Assembly: GCA_945632055.1 (NCBI GenBank)
Contig: CALZCU010000014.1
Coordinates: 1-10,110 of the forward strand
Origin: an uncultured Ruminococcus sp.
GTDB taxonomy: Bacteria; Bacillota; Clostridia; Oscillospirales; Acutalibacteraceae
Direction of reading: 5' to 3'
Length of the DNA: 10,110 nt
The notes under the pieces are model-generated. The model made no database searches, was not told where the DNA came from, and was given only the letters and a program-made list of their open reading frames with translations. Shown one piece after another: positions 2,905-7,222 of the stretch. Positions within the stretch are counted from its first letter, which is position 1. Every line of letters begins with the position of its first letter. The translations under genes and the position numbers were made by a program.

Positions 2905-2946
2905 GCAAAAGAAAACCAGAGGATTTTATTCCTCTGGCTCTTTTGC
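2905..2946. terminator. Bidirectional terminator between convergent genes
   Basis: Nested inverted repeat: outer arms GCAAAAGA (2905-2912) and TCTTTTGC (2939-2946), inner arms CCAGAGGA (2916-2923) and TCCTCTGG (2930-2937), loop TTTTAT. It sits just after the CHAP stop, and the stop codon of the minus-strand Xre gene falls in the loop. The T-rich outer arms give a U-rich tail on both strands, so it can end both transcripts. Confidence 0.75.
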
Positions 2947-3285
2947 TTTACATAGTCCGTTTACAGTTGCTTCAATCACGGACAGTTCTTTATCATCTAA
3001 ATTGTCGAGCTGTGCGTCTAAGCGTCTGCGGACGGAACTCTTTTTGACTTCTTTGTTAGGAAATATATACTCATCAACCGAAACATCGAACATTGTAATA
3101 AGCTGAATAAACAGCTCGATGCTTGGATATTTTCCCTCGTTTTCGATAGATTGAATGTGTCTGGGGGCATAGCCGATTATCCCAGAAAGCTGCTCTCTCG
3201 TCATTCCTCGTGCTTCACGGGCTTTTTTAATCGCCTGTCCTATCGGCATAAAATCGAAATCAAAATCGTTGTTTCTCTCGTCCAT
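2926..3285 (-). CDS. Xre-family (HTH_3) transcriptional regulator
   Basis: 119 aa, taken from ATG at 3285. AAGGTGG at 3293-3299 is 7 bases upstream and supports this start; an earlier TTG at 3306 is less likely. Residues 16-70 form a classic helix-turn-helix: GQAIKKAREARGMTREQLS, then IIGYAPRHIQSIENEGKYPS with the recognition helix RHIQSIE. The C-terminal 45 residues (VRRRLDAQLDNLDDKEL) look like a short dimerisation or effector helix. The gene is transcribed towards the conjugation module and away from the cargo block, as expected for an element-encoded repressor. The start region overlaps an inverted repeat (3304-3327), which suggests autoregulation. Which genes it controls is not shown by the sequence. 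Confidence 0.9.
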   Translation of the reverse strand: MDERNNDFDFDFMPIGQAIKKAREARGMTREQLSGIIGYAPRHIQSIENEGKYPSIELFIQLITMFDVSVDEYIFPNKEVKKSSVRRRLDAQLDNLDDKELSVIEATVNGLCKAKEPEE

Positions 3286-3303
3286 AAGCTCACCACCTTG
3301 CCT

Positions 3304-3327
3304 CAATATAATTCTCTTATTATATTG
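3304..3327 (-). promoter_or_regulatory. Probable operator over the -10 of the minus-strand Xre gene
   Basis: Perfect 9-bp inverted repeat CAATATAAT (3304-3312) / ATTATATTG (3319-3327) with a 6-base spacer. Read on the minus strand it contains TATAAT (3324-3319), a consensus -10 lying 33 bases before the ATG. The matching -35 (TAAGAA around 3347-3342) is poor. A dyad centred near the start of transcription of a Xre gene is a usual autorepressor site. Confidence 0.5.
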
Positions 3328-5138: not shown

Positions 5139-5345
5139 ATGACTCAAAAATGGATACTGTGTCCTGTTTGCGGCAGCAAAACCCGTGACAGGCTTAGAGA
5201 GGATACAGTATTGAAAAACTATCCTCTCTACTGCCCGAAATGCAAACAGGAAACTTTGATTGATGCAAAGGAACTACATATAACCGTCATTAAAAAGACA
5301 TACACGCAAGCAATAAATTTGGAAGCAGAAAAAATATTCAAATAA
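5139..5345 (+). CDS. Cysteine-rich KTR-domain zinc-ribbon protein (copy 1, altered tail)
   Basis: 68 aa, starting 6 bases after yjdF, with AGGGGA at 5121-5126. Two CxxC pairs (Cys8/Cys11 in LCPVCGSKTR and Cys32/Cys35 in LYCPKCKQET) would bind one zinc ion; the KTR motif follows the first pair. KTR proteins are small ICE-associated proteins of unknown role. Compared with the second copy at 6145, residues 1-50 are close, but the tail is replaced: after HITVI this copy reads KKTYTQAINLEAEKIFK instead of TEPDAKTQSR, and the terminator that overlaps the normal gene end is missing. The 3' end was therefore probably lost when the MerR cassette was inserted. The MerR promoter begins 5 bases after the stop. 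Confidence 0.85.
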   Translation: MTQKWILCPVCGSKTRDRLREDTVLKNYPLYCPKCKQETLIDAKELHITVIKKTYTQAINLEAEKIFK

Positions 5346-5406: not shown

Positions 5407-6135
5407 ATGCGAACAGTAAAAGAAGTCAGCAAACTCACAGGTGTTAGTGTGCGCACACTACATTACTATGATGCCATTGGTCTTTTGAAGCCTACAAAAG
5501 TAACCGAGGCAGGCTATCGAATGTATGACGATGCAGCCCTTAGCCGTTTGCAAAACATTCTATTGTTTCGTGAATTACAGTTCCCTCTGAAGGAAATTAA
5601 AGTAATTCTTGATAGTCCTAACTTTAATCAAGAAGAAGCGATAGCACAGCAAATTAGACTGTTAGAATTGCAATATAAGCATATAGGTGAGCTTATTTCC
5701 TTCGCCCGTGAAATTCAGAGTAAAGGAGTAAGGACAATGAATTTTGGAGTTTTTGATACGAATGAGATTGAGCAGTACAAGTCAGAAGTCAAAGCAAAGT
5801 GGGGACACTCTAAAGCATACCAAGAGTATGAAAAAAGAGCTGCTTCTCACGGTGAGAACAACTATGATAAATTTGCCGATGAGATAATGTCCCTGTTCAC
5901 TAAATTCGGAACGATGAAGCAATTACCCCCTACTGATAAAGCTGTTCAAGAAAAAGTCGCTGTTTTGCAATCCTATATAAACGAAAATTTTTATACTTGC
6001 AATAATGAGATTTTAAAAGGATTGGGCGAGATGTATGTATGCGATGAGCGTTTTAAGAAAAACATCGACTGTTTTGGCGGAGAAGGAACGGCAGAATTTG
6101 TAAGACAGGCAATTTTCGCTTATTGTGACAAGTAA
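5407..6135 (+). CDS. MerR-family activator with TipAS drug-binding domain
   Basis: 242 aa from ATG 5407, with GGGG at 5395-5398 8 bases upstream; a GTG at 5398 overlaps that site and is less likely. Residues 1-70 are the MerR winged helix (VRTLHYYDAIGLLKP, AGYRMYDDAALSRLQNILLF). Residues 70-108 form the dimerisation coiled coil. Residues 111-242 match the TipAS antibiotic-recognition domain (FDTNEIEQYKSEVKAKWGHS, LGEMYVCDERFKKNID). TipA proteins of Streptomyces bind thiopeptide antibiotics and activate their own promoter. As I recall the TipAS motif, the Cys before LGEMY that forms the covalent adduct is Gly here (KGLGEMY), so binding may be non-covalent or of another ligand. An internal ribosome site may give a short ligand-binding form. 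A KTR gene follows after 9 bases. Confidence 0.9.
   Translation: MRTVKEVSKLTGVSVRTLHYYDAIGLLKPTKVTEAGYRMYDDAALSRLQNILLFRELQFPLKEIKVILDSPNFNQEEAIAQQIRLLELQYKHIGELISFAREIQSKGVRTMNFGVFDTNEIEQYKSEVKAKWGHSKAYQEYEKRAASHGENNYDKFADEIMSLFTKFGTMKQLPPTDKAVQEKVAVLQSYINENFYTCNNEILKGLGEMYVCDERFKKNIDCFGGEGTAEFVRQAIFAYCDK
5722..5739 (+). promoter_or_regulatory. Internal ribosome site and start for a short TipAS-like form
   Basis: AAAGGAG (5722-5728) lies 8 bases before an in-frame ATG (5737-5739) encoding Met111, exactly where the ligand-binding domain starts (MNFGVFDTNE). Initiation here would give a 132-residue protein lacking the DNA-binding domain. Streptomyces tipA makes a short TipAS form in this way. 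Confidence 0.55.
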
Positions 6136-6144
6136 AGCTTCAAT

Positions 6145-6330
6145 ATGAATATCAAATGGATATTATGCCCTGTCTGTGGCAGCAAAACAAGGTTACAGAT
6201 ACGGGAAGATACAAAGTTAAAGAATTTTCCCCTCTACTGTCCGAAATGTAAACAGGAAACTTTAATCAATGCCAAAGAGTTGCATATAACCGTTATCACA
6301 GAGCCAGACGCAAAGACGCAGAGCCGATGA
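6145..6330 (+). CDS. Cysteine-rich KTR-domain zinc-ribbon protein (copy 2, full tail)
   Basis: 61 aa, starting 9 bases after the MerR stop. It has the same zinc ribbon as copy 1: Cys8/Cys11 (LCPVCGSKTR) and Cys32/Cys35 (LYCPKCKQET). The tail HITVITEPDAKTQSR is the form I take as normal for the family. No good Shine-Dalgarno precedes the ATG (bases 6125-6144 have only weak purine runs), so translation may depend on coupling to the MerR gene. The last three codons form the left arm of the transcription terminator, so gene end and terminator evolve together; this overlap explains why KTR ends recur in the cargo block. The molecular role is unknown. Confidence 0.88.
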   Translation: MNIKWILCPVCGSKTRLQIREDTKLKNFPLYCPKCKQETLINAKELHITVITEPDAKTQSR

Positions 6331-6366
6331 ACTTGTGAGTAATCACAGGCATCGGCTCTTTCTTTT
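6320..6366 (+). terminator. Intrinsic terminator overlapping the end of KTR copy 2
   Basis: Perfect 10-bp arms AGAGCCGATG (6320-6329) and CATCGGCTCT (6350-6359), loop of 20 bases, then TTCTTTT. The left arm includes the last Ser-Arg codons and part of the TGA stop. Confidence 0.88.
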
Positions 6367-6377
6367 ATATTTGGATA

Positions 6378-6414
6378 AGCCCACCGAATAAAAAAAACGG
6401 TGCTTTGGTGGGCT
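6378..6414 (+). other. Hairpin with two competing pairings
   Basis: AGCCCACC (6378-6385) pairs with GGTGGGCT (6407-6414). CACCG (6382-6386) could instead pair with CGGTG (6398-6402) across an A-rich loop. No U-run follows, so it is not a standard terminator. It is the first of a series of hairpins before the sigma-like gene. Confidence 0.45.
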
Positions 6415-6444
6415 GTTCTGTCACGCCCGAACAAAATATCACAG

Positions 6445-6480
6445 CCCTCTAAACCCGTTTTGAGTTTGGAGGGATTTTTT
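6445..6480 (+). terminator. Terminator-like hairpin that also covers a Shine-Dalgarno
   Basis: CCCTCTAAAC (6445-6454) pairs with GTTTGGAGGG (6464-6473) over 10 bp with one G-U; ATTTTTT follows. The right arm GGAGGG is 7 bases from the ATG at 6481, so the hairpin could either end transcription or hide the ribosome site of the leader ORF. Confidence 0.7.
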
Positions 6481-6555
6481 ATGCGCTGGTCTGCCCTGAG
6501 CGCCTTGCTGCTTATCAGAAGCAGCAGTTACCTACATAGCATCACGAATAAGTGA
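6481..6555 (+). CDS. 24-codon leader peptide (candidate)
   Basis: A short ORF starting MRWSALSALLLIRSSS and ending SITNK, with a near-ideal ribosome site (GGAGGG 6468-6473, 7 bases before ATG). It is rich in Ser and Leu. TGCTGCTT/AAGCAGCA (6506-6513/6519-6526) forms a hairpin within it. Its last codons and TGA stop form the left arm of the next hairpin (6543-6590), so a ribosome reaching or stalling near the stop would prevent that hairpin. A strong site, tiny size and placement before stacked hairpins fit a regulatory leader peptide of an attenuator. No such peptide sequence is known to me with certainty. It could be a chance ORF, but the site and overlap argue against it. Confidence 0.5.
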   Translation: MRWSALSALLLIRSSSYLHSITNK

Positions 6556-6590
6556 GGATAATCTGTTAAAAAAATCCTAAGTTATTCGTG
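6543..6590 (+). promoter_or_regulatory. Long hairpin overlapping the leader ORF stop
   Basis: Outer arms CACGAATAA (6543-6551) and TTATTCGTG (6582-6590), then a 3x3 internal loop, then AGGAT (6555-6559) with ATCCT (6574-6578). All pairs are in register. A smaller perfect hairpin GCTTCTA-AAG-TAGAAGC follows at 6601-6617. Neither has a U-run; both may be pause or antiterminator elements. Confidence 0.55.
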
Positions 6591-6651
6591 GTACTATTAC
6601 GCTTCTAAAGTAGAAGCTATATATCTACACAATAGAACTTATATTGCTTAT

Positions 6652-6685
6652 AACCGCAAAGGTATGACTGCCTTTGCGGTTTTTT
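6652..6685 (+). terminator. Strong intrinsic terminator in the leader
   Basis: Perfect 11-bp arms AACCGCAAAGG (6652-6662) and CCTTTGCGGTT (6671-6681), 8-base loop, then TTTT. No gene ends in the preceding 95 bases, so it probably acts as an attenuator or ends a small RNA. Confidence 0.85.
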
Positions 6686-6748
6686 GTTTGTCGTTATTTG
6701 TCGGAATAAAGGATAAGTCCATATCTGGCGTAGGTTGCCGTTCGCCGC

Positions 6749-6784
6749 CTTTCAATCTGGATTTTCAAAAATTCAGATTGGAGG
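6749..6784 (+). promoter_or_regulatory. 16-bp hairpin that hides the Shine-Dalgarno of the sigma-like gene
   Basis: Bases 6749-6764 (core CAATCTGGATTT) pair continuously with 6769-6784 (core AATTCAGATTGGAGG), with three G-U pairs and the tetraloop TCAA. The ribosome site GGAGG (6780-6784), 9 bases before ATG 6794, is wholly inside the stem. A second ATCTG at 6723-6727 could pair with CAGAT (6774-6778) and open the stem, as in a riboswitch or RNA-thermometer platform. Confidence 0.7.
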
Positions 6785-6793
6785 TAAAACGAT

Positions 6794-7222
6794 ATGGCTT
6801 ACAATAAAGCCAAAGAAGAAAAGAAATGGCGGCTCTGGAAAGAAGCCGAAGAAAAACAGTTAAGGAAGCTCGGCGTTGATGAAAGTACCATTGAAACGCT
6901 CCGTTCTCACGATTGGGCGATTTTCAATTCAGACAGGCGGTACTATCAGCGTATGCAGGAAGCGGGTACATACCTTGAGGGAGTTGCTAATGATACGCAG
7001 CAGCCCGAAATAAAGACGGTTGAGGACTTTCTGGACAGTATCGAAAATCAGCAGCTCTATCAGATTTTGATTAAGGTGGACAAGCTGACCCTGCAAATCG
7101 CCTTGCTGAAGATACAAGGCTATTCCACTCGTGAAATAGCTCACTCTCTCAACATAACCGAGAAGGCTGTTTACAGGCGAATGGACAGGCTCAAAGAAAA
7201 ATTAAAAAAGTTTTTTGAATAG
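6794..7222 (+). CDS. ORF7-like sigma-70 region 4 / HTH regulator of the element
   Basis: 142 aa from ATG 6794 with TTGGAGGT just upstream. Residues 1-30 are highly charged and helical (KAKEEKKWRLWKEAEEKQLR). The middle part contains ETLRSHDWAIFNSDRRYYQR. Residues 98-140 resemble sigma region 4: LQIALLKIQGYSTREIAHSL, then NITEKAVYRRMDRLKEKLKK with the recognition helix KAVYRRMDRLK. Proteins of this size and position, between cargo and xis/int, are the counterparts of Tn916 ORF7, which promotes expression of conjugation and excision genes. There is no region 2, so it would not be a full sigma factor. Its ribosome site is locked in a 16-bp stem, so translation is probably regulated. The stop is followed by several hairpins. 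Confidence 0.82.
   Translation: MAYNKAKEEKKWRLWKEAEEKQLRKLGVDESTIETLRSHDWAIFNSDRRYYQRMQEAGTYLEGVANDTQQPEIKTVEDFLDSIENQQLYQILIKVDKLTLQIALLKIQGYSTREIAHSLNITEKAVYRRMDRLKEKLKKFFE

Follow-up and report, generated by a model that had tools for sequence, protein, structure and literature searches.

A candidate −1 frameshift gate in the leader of the sigma-like regulator gene of Tn916/Tn1549-type conjugative elements

We believe, with somewhat better than even confidence, that positions 6445 to 6793 of a 10,110-nucleotide (nt) stretch of DNA from an uncultured Ruminococcus sp. (contig CALZCU010000014.1 of assembly GCA_945632055.1; the window, below) are the native leader of the sigma-like regulator gene, orf7/orf8 in Tn916, of elements of the Tn916/Tn1549 superfamily, and that this leader acts as a frameshift gate. 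The window, judged by its gene content, is the right end of such a conjugative element. The leader contains a short open reading frame (ORF), a conserved run of A's that usually numbers seven (A7, within UUA- or UCA-AAA-AAA), an intrinsic terminator, and a hairpin that hides the Shine-Dalgarno sequence (SD) of the sigma-like gene; the −1 frame of the A-run, hereafter frame D, is open across both of the latter structures. That ribosomes read frame D is likely, and the A7 run is the probable switch, while drug sensing by the leader is a prediction. A broader proposition, that Tn916/Tn1549-type elements at large share an A7 −1-frame switch through a terminator and a locked start before their master regulator, and so possess a ribosome-stress sensor independent of any resistance gene, we hold more tentatively, at a little short of an even chance.

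The first line of evidence comes from clostridial relatives. A search with the sigma-like protein covered one genome per species across 84,980 species, and gave the best 80 of 370 relatives; 13 further sigma loci came from viral contigs, and 92 loci were used in all (handles such as L003 are our own). Fifty-three distinct clostridial leaders have both the A-run and the codons for CRSPP, a frame-D motif at the foot of the SD hairpin. In this set, the frame of CRSPP is open from the A-run in 51 of 53 leaders, against one of 53 for each other frame; it is the −1 frame of the run in 50, and is at once open and in −1 phase in 49, the phase being kept despite spacers of 161, 158, 164, 152, 143 and 119 nt. 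In a representative set, the −1 frame is open in 37 of 38 leaders where 2.1 are expected, and for the A-run of an upstream hairpin (H0), taken as an internal control, it is open in 0 of 37. Frame D reads ..NRKGxTAFAVF.. across the terminator and then ..CRSPPxNLDF.. into the SD hairpin; its stop may lie on either side of the sigma ATG, and at some loci frame D continues into the sigma frame. CRSP or RSPP is found at 82 of 102 loci (not de-duplicated), the 20 misses being mostly second sigma genes. The CRSPP codons carry the strongest coding-type substitution signal of the leader (+2.94 versus −0.25 and −0.35, in the type-A leaders described below), with synonymous changes that include swaps between the TCN and AGC codons for Ser. 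A Pro-Pro stall at CRSPP would open the adjoining hairpin. By eye, CRSPP also precedes SD-locking hairpins of small non-sigma genes in L161, L199, L200 and L204.

Loci of the Tn916/Tn1549 type served as an independent test. In the Tn916-type element of pCF10 (L142), the gap between orf9 and orf7 holds an H0-like hairpin, a structured SD, a leader peptide (MKYIIYNKFPYIGFLSKKVVYLQ) and UCA-AAA-AAA, followed by a strong terminator hairpin (−24.6 kcal/mol) and a structured orf7 SD. After the A7 run of Tn916, the 0 and +1 frames stop at 15-18 nt (the 0 frame at 15 nt), while the −1 frame is open for 96 codons and ends 41 nt past the orf7 ATG, a pattern with a chance of about 0.002. Fourteen plasmid or phage records, together with the 30 best loci from each of two overlapping genome sets (398 and 295 genomes), yielded 66 usable Tn916/Tn1549-type and weaker sigma loci, of which 34 lack T[CT]A7 at 100-330 nt from the sigma start, nine are near-duplicates and 23 are distinct. 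Among these 23, the frame open to the sigma start is −1 in 20, the 0 frame in one and +1 in two, with 2.1 expected. A start preceded by an SD lies in the pre-slip phase, taken as that reading Ser/Leu-Lys-Lys at the run, again in 20 of 23. The −1 frame is thus conserved and open beyond the zero-frame stop in 49 of 53 clostridial leaders and at 20 of 23 other loci. In L161, L201 and L208 the counted A-run, at a distance of only 103-110 nt from the start, probably does not belong to the leader; the first was scored as a miss, the other two as hits. With these three set aside, a terminator-like hairpin stands between A7 and the sigma gene at 17 of 20 loci, and Tn916 is among the three not flagged, despite the stability of its terminator noted above. 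L159 has nine A's and L165 reads AAAAAAG, and the −1 frame is open in both; many of the 34 motif-less loci are weak matches, possibly to other sigma factors. H0 with its conserved A-rich loop is common to Tn916 and the clostridial elements (L142 at about 43220-43265; window 6378-6414).

The structures around this frame are conserved as well. The original prediction, made from the letters of the window, had listed an SD inside a terminator-like hairpin, a 24-codon ORF, a hairpin overlapping its stop, a terminator and a lock on the sigma SD, and all five are present (Table 1). The ORF, ORF1, encodes MRWSALSALLLIRSSSYLHSITNK, with a coding signal that peaks over RSSSYLHS; its SD, GGAGGG, lies within the 3' arm of hairpin H1 (6445-6473), ahead of TTTTTT-ATG. 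H1 folds at −15 kcal/mol, which 2 of 200 shuffles equal, and the region 6440-6700 at −87.3 kcal/mol against −57.6 for shuffles (z −6.5, 0/200 shuffles). The terminator had been described as one with no gene before it; the hairpin is indeed there, but an open frame passes through it. In relatives, whose lack of the ORF and stems had been named as grounds for refutation, both proved to be conserved in Clostridia, and the suggested covariance analysis found compensatory changes in H0, the terminator and H2/H3. H0 is paired in 95.6% of cells, with five pairs changed on both sides (40 sequences; the alignment omits the degenerate L087 and L095, and L127 has no sequence there). For the terminator, aligned in 41 sequences without L004 and L041, the figure is 96.3%, and two-sided changes affect 6 of its 11 pairs. 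The two-sided changes, 13 for H0 and 23 for the terminator, are matched by 0 of 500 shuffles. Among type-A leaders, H2/H3 is paired in 78.5% with 37 two-sided cells, reached by 0 of 500 shuffles, and H2 in 87.5% with 5 of 8 pairs changed on both sides (22 sequences). H1 is paired in 96.8% of 43 sequences, with mostly one-sided changes and a weaker covariation, its number of two-sided pairs being reached by 160 of 500 shuffles. The sigma-SD hairpin is likewise kept.

Upstream sequence of 330 nt or more is available for 88 of the 92 sigma loci, and 59 of these 88 have the A7 pattern in place. The leader ORF occurs in three types: A (MCWS..LLIRSSSYLHS, the type of the window), B (MSFFRAVIHLLM..) and C (xPASSxFYLHIPYRGW..). 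At the DNA level the leader matches 8 of 148 related genomes and, across the class, 15 of 391, counts that both include the window's own genome and in which some matches cover a small part, as well as seven plasmid records and two records of a phage collection. The matches of genomes L044 and L045 were judged probable chance, and a pattern scan of viral contigs gave 12 loci, none matching the leader beyond 20-38 nt. In L032 (G440), from another family of the same order, the leader is 96% identical to that of the window, a sign of recent element transfer. At L056 (about 1129-2893) a group II intron, recognized by Rfam, ends just 5' of the conserved TTTGTCG that follows the terminator elsewhere.

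The proposed mechanism can be followed from the point of view of a single ribosome. It would enter at a start codon behind a weakly accessible SD and read the short ORF. By default it would stop soon after UUA/UCA-AAA-AAA, transcription would end at the terminator, and any read-through mRNA would still keep the sigma SD locked. A ribosome that slips back by one base on the A-run would instead find a frame open across the terminator and the SD hairpin, up to the sigma start. Translating that frame, it would block formation of the terminator behind the polymerase and melt the SD lock; the sigma-like regulator would then be made, and excision would follow. We infer that the slip occurs, and that ribosome-targeting drugs or slow translation would raise its rate. 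For type A the scheme would need an extra entry step, because the ORF that starts at 6481 does not share the pre-slip frame. A AAA AAA stands in the zero frame of an ORF with a start in types B and C, and behind an SD-preceded start in 20 of the 23 other loci, but type A is mostly without an assigned start.

A number of observations weigh against the gate, and the type-A leaders supply several of them. Most have ORF1 in frame D and stopping before A7, the phase of ORF1 varies among relatives, and the pre-slip frame has no obvious start except in L008 and L050. At the same time, 17 of 21 type-A leaders have no stop in that pre-slip frame between −60 and A7, whereas each other frame is free of stops over this span in 1 of 21, and the pre-slip frame carries the conserved reading ..YIxSRxSEDNLLKKSL..; sliding coding scores favor D, then the pre-slip frame, then D again, a pattern that suggests two shifts. 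A +1 shift near H2 followed by a −1 shift would fit these frame signals, but was set aside since no site could be named. In type B (five sequences) frame D looks coding already 5' of A7, and one type-B lineage (L124-L126) has its whole leader in a single uninterrupted frame; the gate is therefore not universal. Other difficulties are matters of sampling and of individual loci. Twenty-nine of the 88 sigma loci lack the A7 pattern at its place, some of them being second sigma genes whose leader lies further upstream, and the clostridial sequences are related, forming 11 clusters at a similarity ratio of 0.75, of which 10 are open throughout. A-runs are interrupted in L054 and L078, L081 is one base off phase, frame-D stops occur in L003 and L081, L004 has six A's, and L190 is a type-A leader without A7. 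Ten more loci have CRSP or ERSPP, and no A-run was found in them. Among the 23 loci of the independent test three fail (L161, L199 and L204, the last two with an intervening small gene), and the motif is missing from the relatives L147, L148, L149, L160, L188 and L190. Finally, the clostridial coding signal in frame D is strong only at CRSPP and weak between there and the run, and in 13 Tn1549-type leaders a coding-type substitution signal is absent in every frame.

The original prediction envisaged Tn916-like control of the sigma-like gene, and its plan of leader ORF, terminator and SD lock holds here and recurs before orf7 of Tn916; what is not supported is the classical mechanism. In attenuation of the tet(M)/erm kind, a ribosome stalled on the 24-codon ORF would refold the RNA and so free the terminator or the SD. 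The coding constraint on ORF1 and the covarying hairpins H2 and H3 that overlap it are in keeping with this, as is the position of CRSPP, where a ribosome stalled in frame D would open the SD hairpin. In folding calculations with a ribosome placed on ORF1 codons 1, 3, 6, 9, 12, 15, 17, 20 or 24, H1, H2 and H3 are altered, but the terminator stays at a probability of 0.95-0.96 and the sigma-SD hairpin at 0.87-0.88 throughout; no competing antiterminator is therefore predicted. Nor did 19 leaders, folded up to the 5' arm of the terminator, contain a conserved pairing partner for that arm. Folding thus gives no sign of the alternative, terminator-competing fold of a tet(M)- or trp-type attenuator, and we reject a stalled-ribosome antiterminator as the main mechanism. 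The ORF, moreover, is not the same in types A, B and C, which do share A7, the terminator and the SD lock, and we regard classical attenuation as very unlikely. The suggestion that the leader is a remnant of a resistance gene lost from this position is almost certainly wrong. Leader peptides of resistance genes are well known on such elements, the annotated tet(M) leader being one example, and the proposed check of the leader against resistance genes returned nine plasmid or phage records. In the four that are annotated around the match, the leader comes after tet genes and before sigma, and never immediately precedes a resistance gene. On plasmids of Enterococcus faecalis and Salmonella (in the latter the sigma gene is only partial and unannotated), tet(O) is followed by KTR (a cysteine-rich zinc-ribbon protein), the leader and sigma; in Monoglobus and in a Streptococcus phage record, tet(O/32/O) or tet(O) is followed by tet(40), the leader and sigma. 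Since the leader lies 3' of tet and 5' of sigma, and tet(O) and tet(M) carry different leaders of their own, it belongs to sigma; it precedes sigma genes in many genomes, and a leader of the same plan lies 5' of orf7 in Tn916, adjoining tet(M). L017 and L155 are Streptococcus records labelled as phages that carry Tn916-type or clostridial regulatory regions together with tet genes.

Two further alternatives accept the open frame and differ from the slipping ribosome in what they make of it. RNA polymerase, too, can slip on an A7 run, and frame D might be translated through that route, through reinitiation after ORF1, or from a start within D. Another entry would explain why the type-A start is mostly out of the pre-slip frame, and 74 of 82 loci have a start codon, mostly TTG, in frame D 36-60 nt before CRSPP, so that entry at this later TTG-type start is conceivable. 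However, an SD-like sequence precedes that start in 0 of 82 loci, frame D stays open much further 5', as far as the A-run, and 20 of 23 Tn916/Tn1549-type loci have a pre-slip ORF with its own SD-preceded start, as ribosomal slipping requires. We consider such an entry unlikely, though by no means negligible. The other alternative is a passive insulator, in which stacked terminators and the SD hairpin shield the sigma operon from transcription of resistance genes and the open frame is a fossil or by-product. Three terminator-like hairpins do stand in a row (that of the KTR gene, H1 and 6652-6681), the left end of Tn916 is insulated by a known terminator according to the sections of PMC11658703 consulted, and a coding signal is lacking in the 13 Tn1549-type leaders noted above. 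Against this, one frame runs for some 50 codons without a stop in 51 of 53 clostridial leaders and at 20 of 23 other loci, where about two would be expected of 38 and of 23, and CRSPP has synonymous changes that include the Ser codon swaps; we judge the insulator quite unlikely.

The frameshift gate has a precedent. Gupta et al. reportedly described antibiotic-induced frameshifting of the ermC leader in 2013. When ketolides induce a frameshift in ErmCL, ribosomes translating the new frame run on into the spacer and unfold the mRNA, so that ermC can be initiated, as set out in the excerpt of PMC5009743 used here. The leader described here resembles that of ermC in its short ORF, in Lys-Lys codons on an A-run near its end and in a locked SD downstream, and, as proposed, in the invasion of the spacer and unfolding of structure by new-frame translation; an ErmCL copy beside a Tn916-like element in L144 likewise ends in PNKK on AAA AAA. 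Unlike in ermC, the run is usually exactly seven A's, its phase is conserved throughout the superfamily, and the −1 frame, kept free of stops over about 50-95 codons, crosses a terminator too; the gene controlled is a mobile-element regulator rather than a resistance gene. The tet(M) attenuator of Tn916, reportedly described by Su et al. in 1992, is also similar in combining a leader ORF with a terminator, and by eye the annotated tet(M) leader peptide covers that terminator; the leader described here differs from it in sequence, in lying before sigma and not tet, in needing a frame change and in having an SD lock. In the portions of PMC9632896 consulted, where this attenuator is cited, translation-inhibiting drugs are said to stimulate excision and transfer of Tn916, and the mechanism named is transcriptional attenuation. 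Part of the corresponding region of Tn916 is already known to Rfam as RF03532 (SQ2397), a family built during an Rfam course (PMC7779021, in excerpt) under the description 'cis-regulator of HTH transcription factor'. In Tn916 its match spans the gap between orf9 and orf7, taking in the H0-like hairpin and the beginning of the leader ORF; it ends 12 nt past the leader start codon and excludes A7, the terminator and the orf7 SD. Covariance-model scores of at least 100 were found for Tn916, L144 and L145, and the window gave no match at E up to 1. Wirachman and Grossman sought four predicted Tn916 terminators between the left end and the conjugation genes, so the orf7 leader lies outside their coverage as given in the parts of PMC11658703 consulted, and the word 'frameshift' is absent from its main text. 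The literature searched contained no report of frameshifting before orf7.

Table 1. Features of the window bearing on the leader and its surroundings.
Feature	Position	Strand	Evidence or remark
Orf9-like repressor	2926-3306	minus	
KTR zinc-ribbon genes flanking the MerR gene	5139-5345 and 6145-6330		
MerR regulator with TipAS domain	5407-6135		2.8e-34; between two cysteine-rich KTR genes
Cysteine-rich KTR protein, zinc-ribbon, 61 amino acids	6145..6330	+	Pfam Cys_rich_KTR 1.1e-32; leader lies downstream
KTR-gene terminator, GAGCCGATG..CATCGGCTC-TTTCTTTT	6321..6366	+	by eye
Hairpin H0, A-rich loop, GAATAAAAAAAACGG	6378..6414	+	covariation; counterpart in Tn916
Hairpin H1, terminator-like	6445..6480	+	leader-ORF SD in 3' arm; T-run reaching the start codon
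Leader ORF1, 24 codons, type A	6481..6555	+	
Hairpin H2, within ORF1	6505..6527	+	
Hairpin H3, A7 run in loop, overlaps ORF1 stop	6536..6597	+	−20.9 kcal/mol, z −5.3
Open frame D, −1 relative to the LKK frame	6562..6807	+	ends 11 nt past sigma ATG; without assigned start codon
Proposed slip site TTA AAA AAA	6566..6574	+	A7 = 6568-6574
Intrinsic terminator inside frame D	6652..6687	+	13-pair hairpin 6652-6681, T-rich tail, z −5.3; terminator scan
CRSPP codons in frame D	6736..6750	+	directly 5' of SD hairpin
Sigma-SD hairpin, 17 pairs	6747..6785	+	hides GGAGG 6780-6784 of ATG 6794; z −4.0
Sigma-like regulator, orf8-like of Tn916-type elements	6794..7222	+	Pfam Sigma70_r4_2 3.6e-06
pemK RNA, Rfam RF02913	7476..7576	+	42.5 bits vs gathering 34.8

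Assignment of the window to the Tn916/Tn1549 type follows from a sigma-like gene, an excisionase and a tyrosine integrase in that order, with an Orf9-like repressor on the opposite strand. The supporting Pfam matches are Sigma70_r4_2, HTH_17, Phage_integrase, and HTH_3 with DBD_HTH; the labels 'excisionase' and 'Orf9-like' are based on position and annotated relatives. The full order is Orf9-like repressor, cargo block, sigma-like gene, PemK toxin, HTH excisionase-like gene, tyrosine integrase and tRNA, with sortase-like and CHAP-like genes at the left of the window (named by eye and from annotated neighbors in L016). The source genome, an incomplete 1.4-Mb assembly of 285 contigs, has a single copy of the leader, and the sigma-like protein shares 52% identity with the product of the second sigma gene in the tet(O) element of E. 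faecalis. The cargo genes include XRE, PadR and MerR regulators, the last with a TipAS antibiotic-recognition domain; this thiopeptide-recognition gene occupies the slot used for tet genes in other elements, and upstream of it, by eye, lies TTGACT-19-TAGAAT, a spacing that we take to be like that of MerR-type promoters. The KTR-terminator hairpin is also found in L003, L004, L005, L013, L033 and L040. A role for the KTR protein, which may resemble Com of phage Mu, as RNA-binding activator of the leader was considered and dropped, since only 36 of 92 loci have a KTR match that ends at most 700 nt from the sigma start and, of the 45 Pfam families listed for the protein, the 25 inspected include no Com family. 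A promoter scan for a candidate directly 5' of H0 gave three sites against a shuffle mean of 4.3, none conserved by eye, and an Rfam trpB match at 6590-6691 (29.9 bits against a gathering threshold of 59, E 0.65) was treated as chance.

Downstream of the sigma-like gene, the operon appears to contain a second RNA element, recognized by its match to the pemK RNA model. In Tn916 this model matches nt 283-383 after the orf8 stop (L142 41822-41922), between orf8 and xis, and overlaps bases essential to canT, a cis-acting RNA that brings about processive antitermination. According to the sections of PMC11658703 consulted, canT(S3) alters bases from nt 283, canT(delta162) removes nt 229-390, and both are antitermination-defective, so the pemK RNA is, by position, an essential part of canT. 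In the same sections, a 291-nt canT piece containing the bases altered in both mutants is inactive, so the pemK part alone need not suffice. The pemK RNA was found in 13 of 20 further loci scanned, and its copy in the window is likely the counterpart of this part of canT. The two elements would share an operon, the counterpart lying downstream of sigma; canT, as an RNA that follows orf8, is not yet made when the polymerase meets the leader terminator.

In Gram-positive bacteria, elements of the Tn916/Tn1549 type account for much of the resistance to tetracycline and of that due to vanB, and examples of both tet and vanB are present among the records of this type examined here. Drug-raised transfer of Tn916 has so far been explained by attenuation, according to the portions of PMC9632896 consulted. 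Many relatives, like the element in the window, have no tet gene at this place, and control of transfer by ribosome-targeting drugs, through a −1 slip instead of attenuation, is possible. If the frameshift gate is real, it would give such tet-less elements a ribosome sensor of their own that controls excision and transfer. It would also be, as far as the literature searched shows, the first evolutionarily conserved leader frameshift that reads through a terminator, and what has been a drug-induced curiosity of ermC would become a widespread natural control device. The explanation of this stretch would thus shift, from the leftover of an attenuator to a native, superfamily-wide frameshift-gated leader.

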